Positions 12,752-43,484 of a stretch of DNA of 64,000 nucleotides are shown one piece after another. The stretch lies in NCBI RefSeq assembly GCF_001870515.1, contig NZ_MDGT01000003.1:450151-514150 (forward strand), written 5' to 3'. How positions within the stretch are numbered: the stretch's first letter is position 1; every line of letters starts with the position of its first letter. The stretch comes from Idiomarina sp. MD25a. Lineage in GTDB: Bacteria > Pseudomonadota > Gammaproteobacteria > Enterobacterales > Alteromonadaceae. The translations under genes and the position numbers were made by a program. The notes beneath the pieces are model-generated. The model ran no database searches. It was not told where the DNA came from and saw only the letters and a list, made by a program, of their open reading frames with translations.

Positions 12752-13143
12752 GTATTACCACCATCTTTCATTTTAATCAGTTGCCGACGTTGTTTTTTGT
12801 CCGGCCGCTTGTCGGGGTGTGGATTGTAAAGCGCATTCAGTTTACGCGCCTCAGCATTCTGCTCGCGTTTTTCTATACTCGCTTCAGATTCTTGGTACAG
12901 TAATTGTGCCTCGGGCGCTCCCCGTCGTTGCTCGCTCAGCGCCAACACTTCGACTTCTTTGCTATCAAAGCCTTGTCGTAAGGTAATTCGATCACCTACC
13001 TGCACGAGTTTAGAGGGCTTACTGCGTTTACCCGCAACATGGACCTTGCCCGACTGCACCATCTGACGCGCAAGCGCCCGAGTCTTATAAAATCGAGCTG
13101 CCCAGAGCCATTTGTCGAGCCTTACACCGCTGTCTTGTGTCAT
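12748..13143 (-). CDS. hslR: HslR (Hsp15), ribosome-associated heat-shock protein
   Basis: This 131-residue S4-domain RNA-binding protein begins VRLDKWLWAARFYKTRALARQMVQSGKVHVAG, the alphaL RNA-binding motif. The C-terminal part is strongly basic (PDKRPDKKQRRQLIKMK). Family members bind 50S subunits carrying stalled peptidyl-tRNA and rescue them. It is the first gene of the hslR-hslO operon and overlaps hslO by 4 bp. Confidence 0.94.
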   Translation of the reverse strand: MTQDSGVRLDKWLWAARFYKTRALARQMVQSGKVHVAGKRSKPSKLVQVGDRITLRQGFDSKEVEVLALSEQRRGAPEAQLLYQESEASIEKREQNAEARKLNALYNPHPDKRPDKKQRRQLIKMKDGGNT

Positions 13144-13183
13144 AAAATCGTCACGAAAATATTATAAAATTAGTGTTAATCGA

Positions 13184-35322: not shown

Positions 35323-36516
35323 CTACTGCGGCAACTCGATGTCGAGCCATACCAAACGATGATCTGAAGACGCATCGCGTTTTTTCATCAAGTCATAACC
35401 GGGTTCACCCTGAACCGGCCAAAAAACGCCTGCGTCTTTGACAATTAAGTCATCAGAAGGCAGCACATAGTCTACCCGTTTACGCCACGCCGCAGTGTGA
35501 TATTGCGATCCCTCAACATCTGGAGAATGATTCGCGCCGCCTTGGCTCATCGGCATCACATCGTTAACACGTGGATGTTCTAACAACTGTGTCATGGCAC
35601 CCTTAACACCGCTCGCACCGGCTTGTGCGTTCAGATCGCCCAATACCACAAAAGAACCGTTGGCAGCGATACCACCACGCTGACCTTGGTCATCATAAAT
35701 GTAGTTATCAGCGCCAGGGGTCAAGTAATCACGCACGAAACGAATTTCGTCGTAGTTCTTCATACCATTACGGTTCTCTGGGCCGTCAAAAGCCGGCGGG
35801 GTTGGGTGCTGAGCTAAGACATGTATAACTTTACCCCCTACTTGAACGGGAACATCCCAATGTGATTTCGAGCTCAACGGGTATTGCGCCATGGCCTCAT
35901 CGCTGTACCACGGCTCATCTGTTGGTTTGCCGTCTTCATCGTGTACATAAGGCGCATGGTGGCCTGGCATGTCTTTCCACAAGAAGTGTTGGAACGTACG
36001 CACGTCATCTTCAAGTATTGGATATTTGGACAAAATCACCATGCCATATTGGCCAGGATACCAGCCAAAGCCCCACGCATCGTTGCCTCGACCCGTCGCT
36101 TTACCATCACGGTTGAGGTCAAACGCAGAGGGCGAACCTGTATTGACGGGGGCAGTGTAAACATAAGGGTACGCGATTGGGTCAAGATGAGCTTGTGATT
36201 GGCCCAAATAGTTGTTTAAAAAGACATCGATACCTTGCTCACGAGGGACATAATCAAACTCGTTGAGCAAAATAATATCGGGGCGCACACGCTGAATGAT
36301 TTCAGCAATACCACGAATTTGTGGATTATTTTCTTGTAAAACCTTGGGCAAAACCGATTCGTAAGTGTTCGGTAAAGCATCGTTTGGCAAGTGGTTGCTC
36401 GAGTCCATACTGACGTTAAAAGTGGCGATACGCACGGTGTCTTGAGCTAAGGATGATGTTGAATAAGTCATTATTAAAAGCAATGAAAATGCAAAGATAC
36501 TACGCATAAAGTTCAT
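35323..36516 (-). CDS. Secreted endonuclease/exonuclease/phosphatase-family protein
   Basis: This protein of 397 residues begins MNFMRSIFAFSLLLIMTYSTSSLAQ, a clear signal peptide cleaved near residue 25. The EEP fold follows: RIATFNVSMD, the metal-binding Glu in PDIILLNEFDYV, WYPGQYGMVILSKYPI, GDLNAQAG and the terminal DHRLVWLDI with the catalytic Asp-His. These match Mg-dependent phosphodiester or phosphomonoester hydrolases. The frame is open 32 codons further upstream, but only the internal ATG gives a signal peptide. Its promoter region faces a Pho-box-like repeat array shared with the oar1 gene, which suggests a role in obtaining phosphate from organic sources (inference). The true substrate is unknown. 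Confidence 0.8.
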   Translation of the reverse strand: MNFMRSIFAFSLLLIMTYSTSSLAQDTVRIATFNVSMDSSNHLPNDALPNTYESVLPKVLQENNPQIRGIAEIIQRVRPDIILLNEFDYVPREQGIDVFLNNYLGQSQAHLDPIAYPYVYTAPVNTGSPSAFDLNRDGKATGRGNDAWGFGWYPGQYGMVILSKYPILEDDVRTFQHFLWKDMPGHHAPYVHDEDGKPTDEPWYSDEAMAQYPLSSKSHWDVPVQVGGKVIHVLAQHPTPPAFDGPENRNGMKNYDEIRFVRDYLTPGADNYIYDDQGQRGGIAANGSFVVLGDLNAQAGASGVKGAMTQLLEHPRVNDVMPMSQGGANHSPDVEGSQYHTAAWRKRVDYVLPSDDLIVKDAGVFWPVQGEPGYDLMKKRDASSDHRLVWLDIELPQ

Positions 36517-36605
36517 GTGAAAGCCTACAGAATGGGACGCTACGACAATGCAAAAGAATAAAGGTTCCCTAAACACTAGGCAAGTGGATAAAAATTGATT
36601 AAAAT

Positions 36606-36634
36606 ATGTCACATATCTGACACGAAAATGTCGC
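36606..36634. promoter_or_regulatory. Three-repeat Pho-box-like array
   Basis: Three 7-mers at 11-bp period read ATGTCAC (36606-36612), CTGACAC (36617-36623) and ATGTCGC (36628-36634), with A/T-rich 4-bp spacers ATAT and GAAA. The first pair matches the E. coli Pho box CTGTCATAWAWCTGTCAY at 15 of 18 positions. It lies 90 bp upstream of the leftward EEP gene and 320 bp upstream of oar1. The first pair is also a dyad, TGTCA-N6-TGACA, so it can be read toward either gene. Confidence 0.6.
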
Positions 36635-36824
36635 AGAAGCTTAATGAATTTAAATGTTCTTCACAAACAGCCCACGTTGAGCCGCTGCCGTGAAATTTTT
36701 CACGCAGTTAGCTTTCCCGTTTTGAATCGACGGTTGTATCGTGGTTCATTAAGTGTTGCTAAATCGTTTTTCTGTAAAGTAGAACATCCAGCATCCTCTC
36801 CTCGTTTTTTCTGCACGCCCCTTC

Positions 36825-36858
36825 GTGTCATCAAGTTGTCATATTCCAGCGTTATAAA
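36825..36858 (+). promoter_or_regulatory. PhoB-type promoter of oar1
   Basis: GTGTCAT-CAAG-TTGTCAT (36825-36842) matches the Pho box at 14 of 18 positions, with both TGTCAT cores perfect and 11 bp apart. A -10 TATAAA (36853-36858) follows after exactly 10 bp, the spacing of classic PhoB-dependent promoters, and there is no -35. The predicted leader to the oar1 ATG is about 80 nt. Confidence 0.72.
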
Positions 36859-36945
36859 TGCGCACTCAAAATTTAGCTCATCTGCTAGTGAGCTTGCTTT
36901 ACCAAAACCATTAGTACGTTTAATTACAACCTCAGGGATAACTCA

Positions 36946-39900
36946 ATGAAATTCAACTCCAAGGTGAGTCGTATTTCTGCTGCCATCGCGTTAGCAGTAG
37001 GAATGTCGACGAGTGTCATGGCCCAAGAGACTTCATCGTCAATGCGCGGTATGATCACAGGCCCACAAGGAAACCCAGTAGCGAACACTAAAATTGTCGT
37101 TACTCACGAACCGACAGGGACAGTAAACGAGTTTGTCACAAGCGCTGACGGTACCTTTACTGCAAAAGGTCTGCGTGTCGGTGGCCCTTACACAGTCGTA
37201 ATCGATTCAGAAAAATTCCAAGATGCAGAGCTCGATAACCTGTATCTTGCTTTGGGTGAAACATTACGTGTGACAAGCCAACTGAAAAACAACGACATGG
37301 AGCGTATTTCAGTATCTGGCTCAGTCATCATGACAGAGAGCGGCGGCGCGAGCAGTAACTTCGGTGAAGAAACCATCGACAACATGCCAAGCCTAAGCCG
37401 TGACCTTAAAGACATCGCGCGCATCAACCCATTGGTATCTATCCGTGGTAATGGCGAAATGTCGATTGCAGGTGGTAACCCGCGCTCAAACAGCATCACT
37501 GTTGACGGTATCGGCCAGAACGATGACTTCGGTCTAAACTACGGCGGCTACCCAACGGAGCAACCACCCGTTTCATTGAGTTCAATTGAACAAATCTCAG
37601 TAGACGTTGCACCTTTCTCAAGTAAGAAAGGCGACTTCTCTGGCGGTACCATCAACGCGGTAACAAAATCAGGTACTAACGAGTTTGAAGGCGAGTTCTT
37701 CTACGAATACTCTTCACCTGACATGAAAGGCGATTCTAAGCGCTTAAACCGTATTACCGGATCAGACGGTAACGACCAAGGTTTCCGTGAGTATGAAACC
37801 GTTGACGTTGAGCCGATTCAAAAAACTTCAACCTTTGGTATGGCACTCAGTGGTCCTATCATCGAAGACACCTTGTTCTTCTTCACTAACTATGAAGAGT
37901 GGAACAGTGAGTTAGATTATCAATACGGTTTCCAAGGTAGCGGTGCAAGCAACGAGTTCTACACCTCACGTGAAAACTTCGATGAATTCTTGCGCATTTT
38001 GGATAGCACTTATGGTATCCAAGATTCATTGCCTGGCGCGCCAGAAGATAAAGACCGTAAGTGGTTGACAAAATTAAGCTGGAACGTAAACCAAGATCAT
38101 CGTCTTGATTTAACCTACCAGTGGCAAGACAACTCAGATATGCGCGGTCACTCAAGCGGTGGTAATACAGTTGTATTAAACTCTCGTGTATATGACTACC
38201 ACACGCGCATGAGCAACATCAGTGCACGCTTATACAGTGACTGGTCGGCAAACTTTATCACCGAGATGGGTATTACCTATAAAGATGTTGTTAGTGATTC
38301 AATCACCAACGCTGACTTTGGTGCGGTAACAGTAGAGGAATACTTCCGTGGTCCGTCTTACGCATTTGGTGCTGACGAATACCGCCACGCTAATAAAGTT
38401 GAGAACCAGAACTTAACCTTCAACTTTGATGCAACGTATTTGTTCGGCGAACACGAGCTCGCGTTTGGTGCAGAGTATGAGCGTCTTCGCTTATATAATA
38501 AGTTTGTACCAGAGAGCTTAGGTGCATGGGAATTCGATAGCCTTGAAGGTTTCGAAAACCGTGAAGTGGGTAACTACAACGGTACGTATGACTTCTCGTA
38601 CCAAAACGCGTTTACAGGTAACCCAGAAGACGCAGCTTATGATGCAGTGCGTTACACCACAGCGCTGTATGTAGAAGATACTTTCTACCCAACAACTGAC
38701 TTCGAGTTGACAGCCGGTGTTCGTTACGAGCGTTTGTCATCAGATGACAAGCCAACCTTGAACCAAAACTTTGTTGATACCTACGGTTTCTCTAACCAAG
38801 AAAACCTTGACGGTATGGACATCGTATTGCCACGCGTGAGCTTCAAGTATTACTTGAACGACGACGTCACGTTACGTGGTGGTTTAGGTCGTTTCTACGG
38901 CGGTGTACCGAACGTTTGGTACAGTAACCCGTTCACTAAAGACGGTATCACGTTGGTAGCTGCAAACAGCGATTTCATCAACGATTACTTTGCTAACAGC
39001 TCAGATCCTGCGGACTTCACACAAGTACCACAAGCGATCCAAGATTCACTGCAGCAAGGCGCTGGTAGCACCAACTACATCGACCCTAACTTTGAATTGC
39101 CAAGCGACTGGCGTGCACAGTTAGCAGCTGATTACAGCTTCGATATCCCAATGGTGGGTGACGACTTCCGCGCAACAACGTCATTCTTGTACGTGCGTAA
39201 GCAAGACGAGTCGGTATGGTTGAACACTGCGTTGACGCCTGTTGATACAACAGCAGACGGTGAGCGTGTTATCTACGAAAGCATCTACAGCGGCAACCGC
39301 TCAGATAACTTCGATATCATGATGACCAACGCAGAAGAGCATGGTCGCAGCTATATCTTCACTCAGTCTTTGGCTAAGCAGTGGGATAACGGTCTTAACT
39401 TGACCATGAGCTACACGCACCAAGACGTTGAAGAAGTATCACCTGGTTCTTCTTCACAAGCAGAAAGTAACTACAAGCACTACGTAGTTAAAACACGTAA
39501 TCAACCGTTCTCTGCACGTGGTGACTACGAAATCGAGCACAGCTTCAAAGTTACCTTAGGTTACGAGAAAGAATTCTTTGATGGTTATAAAACCAACATC
39601 AACTTATTCTATGAGCGTCGTTCAGGTCGTCCGTTCAGCTACACTATGAGCATGTACCAAGATGGCGACTTCGGCGATACCGTTGACTTCTACTCGCAGT
39701 CAGCTTACCTCGCTTACATCCCATCAGGTCCAAACGATCCAAATGTAGATTGGGCGAACTCAGTATCTTGGGACGAGTTGAGCGCAGTACTTGAACGTGC
39801 CGGTATCGCACCAGGCGGTTACATCATGGACCGTAACAGCGGTACTCAGCCATGGATTACTGATATCGACTTGAGCATCAAGCAACAGATCCCAGGTTTT

Positions 39901-40149
39901 GCTGAAGGTCACCGTGGTACCTTGTACTTCACCATCGACAACTTCGCTAACTTGCTTAACAGCGATTGGGGTGTTGAAGAGCGTTTAGGTTATCCGCAGG
40001 TCAACCTGTATGACTTCGGCGGCCTATCGGATGATGGTCGTTACCAGATTGAGCGTTTGCACAATGGTTACGCGCCACAAAACTACGATGAGTACGATAT
40101 TGGTGCATCATCATGGTCTGTCAAACTCGGCGTACGCTACGAGTTCTAA
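36946..40149 (+). CDS. Oar-like TonB-dependent receptor, copy 1
   Basis: This 1067-residue outer-membrane receptor has a signal peptide ending around residue 26 (SVMA-QETSSSMRG). A carboxypeptidase-regulatory-like beta-sandwich (about 30-115, GMITGPQGNPVANTKIVVTHEPTGT...TSADGTFTAKGLRVGGPYTV) precedes the plug (about 120-235, SVSGSVIMTESGG...ARINPLVSIRG...SITVDGIGQNDDFGLN). A 22-strand-type barrel ends in WSVKLGVRYEF with a terminal Phe. Oar proteins import large or unknown substrates using TonB energy. It carries no Cys that I can find. AGGGA lies seven bases before the ATG. A PhoB-type promoter lies upstream and a strong terminator follows. The substrate is unknown; organic phosphate is suggested only by regulation and the neighbouring hydrolase. 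Confidence 0.87.
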   Translation: MKFNSKVSRISAAIALAVGMSTSVMAQETSSSMRGMITGPQGNPVANTKIVVTHEPTGTVNEFVTSADGTFTAKGLRVGGPYTVVIDSEKFQDAELDNLYLALGETLRVTSQLKNNDMERISVSGSVIMTESGGASSNFGEETIDNMPSLSRDLKDIARINPLVSIRGNGEMSIAGGNPRSNSITVDGIGQNDDFGLNYGGYPTEQPPVSLSSIEQISVDVAPFSSKKGDFSGGTINAVTKSGTNEFEGEFFYEYSSPDMKGDSKRLNRITGSDGNDQGFREYETVDVEPIQKTSTFGMALSGPIIEDTLFFFTNYEEWNSELDYQYGFQGSGASNEFYTSRENFDEFLRILDSTYGIQDSLPGAPEDKDRKWLTKLSWNVNQDHRLDLTYQWQDNSDMRGHSSGGNTVVLNSRVYDYHTRMSNISARLYSDWSANFITEMGITYKDVVSDSITNADFGAVTVEEYFRGPSYAFGADEYRHANKVENQNLTFNFDATYLFGEHELAFGAEYERLRLYNKFVPESLGAWEFDSLEGFENREVGNYNGTYDFSYQNAFTGNPEDAAYDAVRYTTALYVEDTFYPTTDFELTAGVRYERLSSDDKPTLNQNFVDTYGFSNQENLDGMDIVLPRVSFKYYLNDDVTLRGGLGRFYGGVPNVWYSNPFTKDGITLVAANSDFINDYFANSSDPADFTQVPQAIQDSLQQGAGSTNYIDPNFELPSDWRAQLAADYSFDIPMVGDDFRATTSFLYVRKQDESVWLNTALTPVDTTADGERVIYESIYSGNRSDNFDIMMTNAEEHGRSYIFTQSLAKQWDNGLNLTMSYTHQDVEEVSPGSSSQAESNYKHYVVKTRNQPFSARGDYEIEHSFKVTLGYEKEFFDGYKTNINLFYERRSGRPFSYTMSMYQDGDFGDTVDFYSQSAYLAYIPSGPNDPNVDWANSVSWDELSAVLERAGIAPGGYIMDRNSGTQPWITDIDLSIKQQIPGFAEGHRGTLYFTIDNFANLLNSDWGVEERLGYPQVNLYDFGGLSDDGRYQIERLHNGYAPQNYDEYDIGASSWSVKLGVRYEF

Positions 40150-40157
40150 GGCTCAGA

Positions 40158-40188
40158 GCCCCTCAATTTTGTTGAGGGGCTTTTTTTT
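40158..40188 (+). terminator. oar1 terminator
   Basis: Stem GCCCCTCAA (40158-40166), loop TTTTG, stem TTGAGGGGC (40172-40180), then eight T residues. It shows the two receptors are transcribed separately. Confidence 0.95.
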
Positions 40189-40192
40189 AGTC

Positions 40193-40226
40193 ATGTCACA
40201 GAACTGACATGATCGAGATTTACACT
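40193..40226 (+). promoter_or_regulatory. PhoB-type promoter of oar2
   Basis: ATGTCAC-AGAA-CTGACAT (40193-40210) matches the Pho box at 14 of 18 positions and is nearly the same sequence as the first pair of the 36606 array. A -10 TACACT (40221-40226) follows after exactly 10 bp. The element starts five bases after the oar1 terminator. An alternative sigma-70 reading is TTTACA (40219) with a poor CATAAC. Confidence 0.68.
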
Positions 40227-40278
40227 TCACGGACTGAATCACATAACAACAGTGTTGAACAAACGGGGATGAACACAC

Positions 40279-43200
40279 ATGTTTAATTCAACTTTTAAGC
40301 GCACCGCATTGGCAGCCGCCATTGCAATGACTGTATCAGGTGCCGCGCTTGCACAAGACACCTCATCGAGCATTCGTGGTGTTGTCACTGCAGAATCAGG
40401 TACCATCATTAGCGGTGCAACTATTCAGTTGCGTGATGAACGCACTGGCTCAGTCAAAACCTTAACGACTAACGCACAAGGCACGTTCTCATCACGTGGT
40501 TTGCCTGTGGGTGGTCCATACACTTTGATGGTTAAAGGTCCTAACGGCCAAAGCCAAGTCATCGAAAACGTTTACCTCACGTTGGGTGACTCAGAGACCG
40601 TAAATGTGGTACTCGAACCGCAAGATATCGAAACAATCAGCGTTACTGGTACAGCACCGACTAACGCGTTGTACGGTAGCAACAGCCCTGCGGCAAACTT
40701 CAACCTCGAAGATTTGCAAGACGCCCCGGCCGCTAACCGTGACCTAAAAGACGTAGTACGTATCGACCCACGCATCTACATCAACGAAACCAACGCAGGC
40801 GACATCCAGTGTGGTGGCGCAAACCCGCGTTTCAACAGCTTGACTGTTGATGGTGTGCGTATGAACGATAACTTCGGCTTGAACTCAAGCGGTTATCCAA
40901 CAGAGCGTATGCCTTTCTCTTATGATGCGATCGAACAGGTTGCAGTAGAATTCGCACCGTTTGATGTGCAATACGGTGGTTTCACCGCATGTAACATCAA
41001 CGCTGTTACCAAATCAGGTGACAACGAAATGTTCGGTGGTGTGTTCTTTGATTACACCAACGATTCATTACAAGGTAGTGAGCTTGAAGGCGATACTATT
41101 AACGTAGGCGCATTCAACGAAAAACGTTACGGCTTTAATGTCGGCGGCGCTATCTTAGAAGACAAATTGTTCTTCTTTACCTCATACGAAAAACTTGAAG
41201 GTTCTGACACCTTTGACCGCGGCCCAGAAGGCACCGGCGTAGCATCACCTGTATTGGGTGTGTCTGCAGCAGACGCAGAACGTATTCGTCAAATCGCGAT
41301 CAACAACTACAACTACGACCCAGGCACGTTCCCTGCGAGCTTGCCAGTCGAAGACGAGAAGTTTCTTGCTAAGTTAGATTGGTACATCAATGACGCGCAC
41401 CGTGCATCATTCACGTACAACTACAACGACGGCTTCTCAATTGCCGAATCAGACGGCGATGCAGACGAGCTTGAGTTCTCAAACCACTTCTATGAGCGTG
41501 GTTCTAAGTTCACTTCATATGTTGGTGAGTTCTTCTCTGACTGGACGGATAACTTCTCAACCGAAGTACGTGTCGGTTACTCAGAGTTAGACGCACGTGT
41601 TAACCCATTAGGCGGCACCGAGTTTGGTGAAGTTCAAATCGGCGTTAACGATGCAACCGTATACTTGGGTGCAGATGACTCGCGTCACGCAAACAAATTG
41701 AAGTACGACACGACGTTCTTCAAATTAAAAGGTACTTACCTTGCGGGCGACCACATCATCTCTGCTGGTATTGAGCAAGAGAAATACGACGTTTACAACT
41801 TGTTCGTACAAGAAGCTCAAGGTGAATACCGCTTCGGTTCTATCGATGCGTTTGAAGCCGGCACACCAAGCCGCGTAATCTATGAAAGCGCAGCAGGTAC
41901 GAATAACCCAACGGACGCGGCAGCAGAATTCTCTTACGCTGTAAACACGGCGTACGTGCAGGATGAGTACTACTACGCACCAATGGACATCACCTTTACT
42001 TACGGTTTGCGTTATGACTGGTACACCAGCAGCGATAACCCAGTAAACAACCCATTGGTAGAAGACCTTTATGGTTTCTCTAACCAGCAAAACATGGACG
42101 GCCAGGACTTACTGCAACCACGTTTTGGCTTCAACTGGTTTGTGAGCCCACAGTTAGAAGTACGTGGTGGCGTTGGCTTGTATTCAGGCGGCAACCCGAA
42201 CGTATGGATCTCTAACAATTACTCAAACAACGGTGTCACTCAGTACGAAGCGAACCTATTTGATGATTTCTTCGCAGGCGGTAACACCTTATTCAACATT
42301 CCTCACACAGGTGAAGGTCGTCCAATCTACGACATTCCACAAAACCTGTTTGACGAAGTCGCTAATGCGAACGGTGAAGGTCCAATCAACACCATGGATC
42401 CAAACTTCGAATTGCCAAACGAGTGGAAATACGCGTTGGGTGCAACTTACACGTTCGATAACGACTACGTGTTATTGGTTGACTTCTTACACACTGAGAA
42501 GAAAGACGCCGCGGTTATCTACAACCTTGGTTTAGAGCAAACGGGTACAGCACCAGATGGTCGTCCTATCTTCAGCGAACTGTCTACTGACGGTCGTGAC
42601 CAAGGCGATGACTTCTTGTTGACCAATGTTAAAGGCGATTCTGGTTCACAAACGACTGTGTCATTGGCATTGAACAAGTCATATGACTTCGGTTTAGACT
42701 GGAGCTTCGCATACGCTTACAACCGTGCAGAAGATGTGAACCCAATGACCAGCTCAGTGGCGTTCTCTAACTACACTAACTTAGCAACCGCGAACCCGCA
42801 GAACCCAGGCGTGTCGACCTCTAACTACGAGATCCCACACCGCTTCACGTTCCGTGCAACGTACACATCAGAAATCATGGGTTACGAGAACACCATGACC
42901 TTATTCGCTACGCGTAACGAAGGTCGTCCATACTCGTTCACGATGTCTGACGGCGCATTTGGTGATGTTGCTTACCAAGGTCGCCAGTTACTGTACGTAC
43001 CAACCGGTGCTGATGATCCTAACTTCGTAGCAGGTATGGATGACGACGGTAACCCGTTTGATACGCAAGCGTTCTTTGACTTCATCAATTCACAAGGATT
43101 AGGTGAGTACGCAGGCGGTATCGCACCGCGTAACGAGTTCAACTCGAAGTGGTGGACCAAAGTTGATTTCCGTATGGAACAACAATTACCTGCATTCAGC

Positions 43201-43434
43201 AGCGACCACGAAGCGTCAGCCTTCTTCGTTGTTGAAAACCTCGGTAACTTGTTGAACGACGACTGGGGTGTATTGTATGAAGCGAGCTTCCCACGTGCTG
43301 TGACGGTGGCTGATGTGAGCATCAACGACCAAGGCCAGTACGTATTTGAAAGCTTCCGTGACCCACGTGTTCAATCACGTGCAGGTGCGCCTTCATTGTG
43401 GTCAGTACGTGTAGGCTTCGAATACAAATTCTAA
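40279..43434 (+). CDS. Oar-like TonB-dependent receptor, copy 2
   Basis: This 1051-residue paralogue of the preceding gene has the same layout: signal peptide to about residue 26 (GAALA-QDTSSSIRG), regulatory-like domain (about 30-115), plug (about 120-245) and barrel ending WSVRVGFEYKF. Shared landmarks include VGGPYT, NRDLKDVVRIDP, NPRFNSLTVDG, NAVTKSG and DPNFELPNEW. It differs in having exactly two cysteines, Cys178 (DIQCGGANPRFNS) and Cys238 (FTACNINAVTKSG), both in the plug, where copy 1 has none. It has its own Pho-type promoter and terminator. The pair looks like an old tandem duplication that has diverged in ligand surface. Confidence 0.87.
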   Translation: MFNSTFKRTALAAAIAMTVSGAALAQDTSSSIRGVVTAESGTIISGATIQLRDERTGSVKTLTTNAQGTFSSRGLPVGGPYTLMVKGPNGQSQVIENVYLTLGDSETVNVVLEPQDIETISVTGTAPTNALYGSNSPAANFNLEDLQDAPAANRDLKDVVRIDPRIYINETNAGDIQCGGANPRFNSLTVDGVRMNDNFGLNSSGYPTERMPFSYDAIEQVAVEFAPFDVQYGGFTACNINAVTKSGDNEMFGGVFFDYTNDSLQGSELEGDTINVGAFNEKRYGFNVGGAILEDKLFFFTSYEKLEGSDTFDRGPEGTGVASPVLGVSAADAERIRQIAINNYNYDPGTFPASLPVEDEKFLAKLDWYINDAHRASFTYNYNDGFSIAESDGDADELEFSNHFYERGSKFTSYVGEFFSDWTDNFSTEVRVGYSELDARVNPLGGTEFGEVQIGVNDATVYLGADDSRHANKLKYDTTFFKLKGTYLAGDHIISAGIEQEKYDVYNLFVQEAQGEYRFGSIDAFEAGTPSRVIYESAAGTNNPTDAAAEFSYAVNTAYVQDEYYYAPMDITFTYGLRYDWYTSSDNPVNNPLVEDLYGFSNQQNMDGQDLLQPRFGFNWFVSPQLEVRGGVGLYSGGNPNVWISNNYSNNGVTQYEANLFDDFFAGGNTLFNIPHTGEGRPIYDIPQNLFDEVANANGEGPINTMDPNFELPNEWKYALGATYTFDNDYVLLVDFLHTEKKDAAVIYNLGLEQTGTAPDGRPIFSELSTDGRDQGDDFLLTNVKGDSGSQTTVSLALNKSYDFGLDWSFAYAYNRAEDVNPMTSSVAFSNYTNLATANPQNPGVSTSNYEIPHRFTFRATYTSEIMGYENTMTLFATRNEGRPYSFTMSDGAFGDVAYQGRQLLYVPTGADDPNFVAGMDDDGNPFDTQAFFDFINSQGLGEYAGGIAPRNEFNSKWWTKVDFRMEQQLPAFSSDHEASAFFVVENLGNLLNDDWGVLYEASFPRAVTVADVSINDQGQYVFESFRDPRVQSRAGAPSLWSVRVGFEYKF

Positions 43435-43459
43435 GCACACGTCATAAAACAGCGACAAG

Positions 43460-43484
43460 GGCCGCTCATTTGAGCGGCCTTTTT
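43460..43484 (+). terminator. oar2 terminator
   Basis: Stem GGCCGCTC (43460-43467), loop ATTT, stem GAGCGGCC (43472-43479), then five T residues. Confidence 0.92.

Follow-up and report, generated by a model that had tools for sequence, protein, structure and literature searches.

The 64-kb window analysed here (the whole stretch of DNA, C3:450151-514150 on contig NZ_MDGT01000003.1 of the 2.68-Mb genome of Idiomarina sp. MD25a) contains a locus in which two genes for Oar-like TonB-dependent receptors, oar1 and oar2, are divergent from a gene for a phosphoesterase or nuclease of the EEP superfamily, with Pho-like sites before all three genes. On sequence grounds, control of the receptors by PhoB is highly probable, and the case for PhoB control of the EEP gene itself is weaker; putting the sites together with the neighbours of the same genes in related bacteria, we favour, with some reservation, a PhoB-controlled, TonB-powered locus for scavenging nucleotides or nucleic acids.

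Pho-like sites before the receptor and hydrolase genes

The sites were scored with a weight matrix trained solely on the pstS promoters of 19 genomes, pstS being an accepted PhoB target and every one of these promoters containing TGTCA-N6-TGTCA, and with a sequence-only covariance model (R1) built from the same promoters and run with filters off for the window scan. The genes and sites are as follows.

36826..36841 (18-bp site 36825-36842), plus strand: oar1 Pho box TGTCA-N6-TGTCA; from the pstS matrix, R1 and the own-genome scan
36853..36858, plus strand: oar1 −10-like hexamer TATAAA; from the sequence
40194..40209 (18-bp site 40193-40210), plus strand: oar2 Pho-like box TGTCA-N6-TGACA; from the pstS matrix and R1
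40221..40226, plus strand: oar2 −10-like hexamer TACACT; from the sequence
36607..36633, minus strand: EEP Pho-like array CGACA-N6-TGTCA-N6-TGACA; from the sequence, the pstS matrix and R1
36601..36606, minus strand: EEP −10-like hexamer TATTTT, 11 bp from the middle half-site
35323..36516, minus strand: EEP-superfamily phosphoesterase/nuclease, 397 aa from the ATG at 36516, signal peptide by eye
36946..40149, plus strand: oar1, Oar-like TonB-dependent receptor, 1067 aa; PF13620, PF25183 and PF00593 over cutoff
40279..43434, plus strand: oar2, Oar-like TonB-dependent receptor, 1051 aa; PF13620, PF25183 and PF07715 over cutoff

Among 127,928 window positions the pstS matrix ranked oar1 second, the EEP array fifth (in its plus-strand register) and oar2 sixth, the other places in the top six going to a site before gspC (first), to 29134 and to 35310 on the minus strand, which overlaps the 3′ end of the EEP gene; when the box was scored without its −10 part, oar1 came first, the best EEP register eighth and oar2 25th. 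The top four R1 matches in the window were oar1 (E 0.0014), gspC (0.12), EEP (1.1) and oar2 (1.3). An R1 scan of the own genome, in which a prefilter scored 150 of 1950 candidates, listed five places at E ≤ 10, namely pstS, oar1 (E 0.059), the TonB operon described below (0.097) and two before phoB, so that oar1 was second-best behind pstS only. By these scores, the oar1 site strongly resembles the accepted PhoB targets of the genus, and the oar2 and EEP sites resemble them weakly.

A first-pass annotation of this DNA had reported 14/18 Pho-box matches before both oar genes, each exactly 10 bp from a −10 and lacking a −35, together with a three-repeat array before the hydrolase. These positions and spacings hold: both 18-bp sites show 14/18 identity to the Escherichia coli Pho consensus, exactly 10 bp from a −10-like hexamer, the arrangement of PhoB promoters, a box about 10 bp before the −10 that replaces the −35, is found at oar1, at oar2 and at the middle EEP half-site, and the array is real on the minus strand. 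Its description of the sites as TGTCA repeats needs correction for two of the three, since oar1 alone has TGTCA-N6-TGTCA, an exact pair of PhoB-type pentamers at 11-bp period, whereas the oar2 site and the inner EEP array carry one TGACA half-site and read TGTCA-N6-TGACA, a palindrome as well as a degenerate direct repeat. Bare patterns matched at ≤1 mismatch gave 5 window hits for TGTCAN6TGACA (at least 5 in 12 of 100 shuffles) and 9 for TGTCAN6TGTCA (at least 9 in 5 of 100), and genome-wide there were 4 palindromes against 5 for a reversed control; such counts were dropped as evidence, being close to chance. Direct forms numbered 13 genome-wide against 3 for their control. It is the pstS-trained scores and the conservation that set the sites above chance.

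Close relatives by named loci are Idiomarina and Pseudidiomarina; 19 genus genomes were counted as one set and Pseudidiomarina loci apart. Sequence beside the EEP gene was usable in 18 of the 19 (G017 stops at a contig edge), and the register of the sites at EEP, at the TonB operon and at gspC was judged by eye on the sequence. Before the 33 oar genes of these 18 genomes, two spaced half-sites were present in 31, as TTCA-N6-TGTCA (23), TGTCA-N6-TGACA (4), TGTCA-N6-TGTCA (3) or TGTAA-N6-TGTCA (1), with none of these forms in G015 slot 2 and G016 slot 1; the 15 slot-2 genes had TGTCA-N6-TGACA in 4 cases, TTCA-N6-TGTCA in 10 and another form in 1. In all 33 promoters the best pstS-matrix score, the maximum over the promoter's 137 positions, lay within the top 0.07% of 297,998 positions, a level attained by 6.5% of like-sized blocks, the median oar score being attained by 1.4%. 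When R1 was run over 17 relatives' loci, all 10 matches at E ≤ 5, from 9 loci, fell on oar or EEP sites.

At the EEP gene, the array was in register in 17 of the 18 genomes (the spacing in G016 is 13), T/CATTTT stood 11 bp from the middle half-site in 17, and the palindrome was retained in 15; the TGTCA-N6-TGACA form was also found there in 3 of 4 Pseudidiomarina loci. In a conservation profile of eight genomes (13 of 18 intergenic regions were extracted by regular expression and 5 near-duplicates then removed), the EEP palindrome had an identity of 0.91, at the 98th percentile of intergenic 16-mers. Conservation of the boxes in orthologous loci, scanned with a matrix, had been set beforehand as the test on which the idea of phosphate regulation could fail, and the idea came through it unrefuted.

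Two further conserved elements were seen beside the array. A block CGCAGAAGCTTAATGA adjoins it at window positions 36632-36647 (0.91 identity, the same eight genomes), and between the array and the ATG, at 36540-36590 on the minus strand, lies a second element, TTGCCTAG-N7-GRACCTTTATTS, which could be read as either a sigma-70 or an extracytoplasmic function (ECF) promoter.

Genes of the locus and other putative Pho targets

CarboxypepD_reg and OMP_b-brl_4 scored over the Pfam cutoffs in both receptors, and Plug passed its cutoff in oar2 but fell short of it in oar1 (20.6 versus 23.9), which by sequence places both in the Oar-like class (CarboxypepD_reg extension, plug, beta-barrel), with the oar1 plug under cutoff. 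We know of no well-settled substrate for Oar-like receptors. The EEP ← → oar order is kept in Idiomarina, the oar genes being divergent from EEP in all 18 genomes with flanks, two in number in 15 of them and single in 3 (G007, G010 and G014). Among the named loci, 12 of 13 have an oar gene beside EEP, and none was found in the 4.35 kb upstream of EEP in L031. A receptor tree of 50 sequences (17 slot-1, 15 slot-2 and 18 from other genera), built by a quick method that carries a long-branch warning and excluding the G014 receptor (frame <900 aa), gave two classes, each with members adjoining EEP in other genera. Slot 1 in Idiomarina holds two distinct receptor subtypes (5 and 10 genomes) and, in G007 and G010, a slot-2-type gene, as if slot-1 receptors had been swapped beneath a retained promoter.

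The EEP protein matched PF03372 (5.1e-29, Pfam, on the 429-aa open reading frame (ORF)), a match present in 19/19 genus genomes, and N34, E86, H237, D294, N296, D349, D385 and H386 were invariant in an alignment of 17 sequences that contained the window's own; the family match, together with the conserved catalytic residues, indicates membership of the EEP superfamily. We take these N, E, H, D/N, D and DH positions to correspond to DNase I residues. The GTG start of the ORF at 36612 overlaps the Pho-like array, and the ATG at 36516-36514 is the likelier start, judged by eye from relatives. A sequence-profile search gave no PDB relatives at E ≤ 0.01; two weak, unrelated matches obtained from the single protein (E 0.07 and 0.5) were rejected. 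In L204:6896-12058 (minus strand, in the orientation with EEP on minus), an EEP domain lies inside a 1720-aa ORF, apparently a fusion.

The own genome contains phoB (TIGR02154, 364 bits, cutoff 296), and with it sit pstS, phoU, genes for two permeases and an ATPase, and a kinase ORF at the place of phoR. On the same contig as pstS, and 8.4-10.1 kb from it in 19/19 genomes, lies a DUF3450-led operon, which in the own genome encodes two MotA/ExbB proteins, ExbD, TonB and a TPR protein (Pfam), and whose promoter carries tandem 11-bp repeats in 19/19 genomes, with pstS-matrix scores of 16.9-27.0. At L038:12750-17949, a TonB/ExbBD operon with DUF3450 lies near phoB-pstS and a porin, and its four-repeat array is shared with a divergent histidine kinase. 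The window itself holds a further site, with the top pstS-matrix score and rank 2 with R1:

13138..13170 (within 13136-13172), plus strand: Pho-like site TGTCA-N6-CGTCA-N11-TAAAAT before gspC

TGTCAT occurs at the aligned place in 19/19 genomes, and the site is the best matrix match there in 18, G016 being the exception. The genes gspC, D and E were identified by Pfam, and this type II secretion operon may, from its promoter sequence, belong to the Pho regulon. Pho-like sites also stand before ppk, DUF47-PiT and a 918-aa lipoprotein-like ORF in the own genome. The 918-aa ORF in L040:1024-3780 (minus strand), repeat-built and lipoprotein-like, with a weak beta-helix match under cutoff and TTGTCACAAATTTGTCAC upstream, is a possible further Pho target. 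The DUF47-PiT box was rejected as a genus-wide training site: in the 230 bp viewed by eye, TGTCA-N6-TGTCA was present only in G000, G012, G005 and G004, and G016 had other TGTCA sites.

EEP-oar loci outside the genus

Of 295 genomes belonging to the order, 79 (the own genome among them) have an EEP relative, and from their 83 matched places (own place included) 20 loci outside the genus were picked and fetched, and then 20 more. An oar gene adjoins EEP in 12 of the first batch and 6 of the second. A test for PhoB-type arrays, whose rule was fixed before the second batch was fetched, was positive before oar both in the 12 exploratory loci (p=5e-10) and in the 6 held-out loci (p=2e-4, with 500 shuffles where 1000 had been set beforehand, and with some oar starts taken as the nearest in-frame ATG and probably internal, as in L214 and L217); individually, three held-out loci gave p ≤ 0.012 and one 0.084. 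Before EEP the same test was negative (p=0.94 and 0.55; p<0.05 in 1/18 loci with oar and 2/15 without), suggesting that outside Idiomarina the site goes with the receptor and not with EEP. Seven of the 40 loci lacked the EEP start motif and are missing from this EEP-upstream test and from the N-terminus survey given below. In many oar promoters outside the genus the pentamers are of the TGTAA type, with the 11-bp step to the −10 unchanged, and several (L189, L200, L203) score poorly with the pstS matrix as trained.

Within ~7 kb, 11 of the 18 EEP-oar loci have alkaline phosphatase, a RutR-like TetR gene or nucleoside/nucleotide genes, as defined by a reference set (alkaline phosphatase, RutR-like TetR, DeoA, DeoB, DeoD, Udk, NupC and e(P4) 5′-nucleotidase) that was picked after the first 20 loci had been viewed. 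None of the 22 EEP loci without oar has a gene of this set; an ExeM-like match occurs in 2 of them, at 26% identity in one case. L195-L199 have alkaline phosphatase, EEP and a RutR-like gene side by side in that order, with the RutR-like gene between EEP and oar. The L195 phosphatase matched PF00245, and the regulator matched TetR_C_3 and reached 172 bits with TIGR03613, under the cutoff of 368. Scored with the RutR operator consensus, palindromes of this type lie before oar in 4 of these 5 loci (p ≤ 0.015; L198, p 0.15) and also before the L190 oar (p 0.007), where no RutR-like gene is in view; the other 12 outside oar loci have none. The best such match in Idiomarina oar promoters, 10/14, was not accepted as a site, and the reference set found no RutR-like gene in the window.

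Proposed mechanism, alternatives and known systems

Taking these observations together, we propose that under phosphate shortage phosphorylated PhoB (PhoB~P) would bind the 11-bp-spaced TG(T/A)CA repeats standing in for the −35 and turn on both Oar-like receptors and the divergent EEP phosphoesterase, and that PhoB would also activate the TonB-ExbBD operon beside phoB and pstS. The receptors, energised by TonB, may then carry phosphate-bearing nucleic-acid pieces, or nucleosides, across the outer membrane; once exported to the cell surface or the periplasm, EEP would cleave phosphodiester bonds, and phosphatases would complete the release, with Pst importing the phosphate and nucleoside transporters and salvage enzymes taking the remainder. 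The first-pass annotation had instead placed a secreted hydrolase first and import second. The signal peptide was read by eye and 10 of 33 EEP relatives have a lipobox-like N-terminus, so that a periplasmic or outer-membrane location is as likely as secretion and the enzyme may be periplasmic instead of extracellular; import first, followed by periplasmic hydrolysis, would fit TonB receptors equally well. The phosphate-regulon part of that annotation is well supported on sequence grounds, yet the three genes are not self-contained, given the similar sites at the TonB/ExbBD operon, the type II secretion operon and elsewhere. Its nucleotide or phosphate products draw support from the neighbours in other genera, a support that is weak in the second batch. 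The Pho-type switch, like that of the main phosphate-uptake genes, and the nucleic-acid reuse neighbours in relatives make phosphorus scavenging from nucleotides probable. A fuller version, which we offer only tentatively, has this clade's Oar-like receptors importing nucleotides or short nucleic acids with energy from TonB. PhoB would govern them along with a TonB complex from its own regulon, and in related genera a RutR-like repressor that senses pyrimidines would govern them as well; if true, a single receptor gene would respond to phosphate hunger and pyrimidine supply together.

Several observations weigh against PhoB-controlled nucleotide scavenging. In its EEP-facing register the EEP array ranks only 16 of 127,928 with the pstS matrix, and its matches ranked fifth by the matrix and third by R1 face oar1; R1 at oar2 and EEP is weak alone, at E ~1 in 64 kb with one half-site covered; and the oar2, EEP and gspC sites are absent from the own-genome list, where weaker sites were possibly overlooked by the prefilter, as gspC indeed was. 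The oar1 box (0.85 identity, 87th percentile, eight genomes) shows lower conservation than the EEP site, R1 gave no match at E ≤ 5 in 8 of the 17 relatives' loci, held-out loci L215 and L220 have no array, and counts over genomes are not independent, the genomes being related. The nucleotide substrate is drawn from neighbours in other genera, found in 10 of the 12 exploratory oar loci but in only 1 of the 6 held-out ones, and all but one of the 11 loci that have them belong to one family, f1, the window's own; no nucleoside genes of the reference set were found near the locus in the window and the 13 named Idiomarina and Pseudidiomarina loci.

The last point would suit receptors that are under PhoB control and import another phosphorus source, such as phospholipid headgroups, phytate, polyphosphate or peptide-phosphate complexes, with EEP as its phosphodiesterase or phosphatase. 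The Pho sites fit this too, the EEP fold serves many phosphoesterases, and the profile search named no PDB relative at E ≤ 0.01. In addition, lipid headgroups have been put forward, beside nucleic acids, as substrates of the PusCD loci of Flavobacterium (PMC8115612, in excerpt). The nucleoside salvage genes around the same EEP-oar pair in relatives, and the RutR-type palindromes that precede oar in 4 of the 5 loci having the regulator, speak against another source, which we consider unlikely but worth keeping in view. A dimeric repressor that uses the palindromic sites as its operators, leaving oar1 as the sole true Pho promoter, appears improbable. Two of the three sites form a perfect inverted repeat, TGTCA-N6-TGACA, the EEP palindrome is among the best conserved intergenic 16-mers, and the lower rank of the array in the EEP-facing register agrees with such an operator, but the palindrome is missing at EEP in G003, G013 and G016, of which G003 and G013 retain TGTCA at 11-bp spacing and G016 has a TGACA-N6-TGTCA box at spacing 13. 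We set the repressor aside on these three genus members, two of which keep the TGTCA register; moreover, 10 of 15 slot-2 genes carry TTCA-N6-TGTCA instead, the array of the TonB operon has both TGACA and TGTCA within a single 11-bp register, and the palindrome shows no enrichment over the genome. General peptide or carbon receptors, with the Pho-like sites as ordinary promoter sequence, could fit the M20 peptidase and antiporter-family genes found downstream, as well as the near-chance pattern counts in the window; the pstS-trained ranking, the conservation across 18 genomes and the result from held-out loci of other genera make this very doubtful.

The locus is best read, by analogy, as a gammaproteobacterial counterpart of the phosphate-inducible PusCD loci, whose TonB-dependent SusC-like receptors are induced only by phosphate depletion and are co-located with phosphodiesterases and phosphomonoesterases, as described in the excerpts drawn on (PMC8115612; the other papers cited below were likewise seen in part). 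Both place a TonB receptor, here putatively phosphate-inducible from its sequence, beside a phosphoesterase, but PusCD has a SusD-like partner and belongs to Bacteroidetes, whereas here Oar-like receptors with Pho boxes occur in a gammaproteobacterium; no SusD-type Pfam match was found among the 20 window proteins scanned, ORFs of other loci being mostly outside that scan. In Pseudomonas aeruginosa, PUMA3/PdtA likewise has PhoB-bound promoters, one driving exbB2D2-tonB4 like the TonB operon here, but requires the ECF sigma factor VreI and a −35, and its receptor VreA lacks the barrel (PMC4971064). Caulobacter similarly connects phosphate starvation with type II secretion and with a TonB-dependent receptor, yet ElpS is a lipoprotein and not an EEP enzyme, and cc0171 was reported as constitutively expressed (PMC2996285). 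Oar of Myxococcus xanthus (PMC3222651) and the Oar-like receptors of Xanthomonas (PMC1790865) share the N-terminal extension on a TonB-type receptor, and the excerpts of these papers mention no phosphate-regulation or nucleotide role. RutR is a TetR-family regulator of pyrimidine catabolism (PMC5343134), comparable to the RutR-like gene in L195-L199, from which it differs in that the L195 protein falls under the TIGR03613 cutoff. By word search, the main text of a study of DNA degraders in marine sediment names neither TonB nor Idiomarina (PMC8289736), and the open-access literature, searched by titles and abstract openings, gave no match linking Oar-like receptors to phosphate or nucleotides. 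Phosphate-inducible TonB receptors (Flavobacterium) and PhoB-bound TonB-complex promoters (P. aeruginosa) are already known; what sets the present locus apart is the use of Oar-like receptors, the partnership with EEP and the link to nucleosides and RutR. Phosphate regulation and a nucleoside-salvage neighbourhood give Oar-like receptors a concrete, testable candidate substrate. If the proposal is true, a TonB complex and possibly type II secretion come under the same switch as the receptors, and phosphate-inducible TonB receptors extend from Bacteroidetes to marine Gammaproteobacteria.

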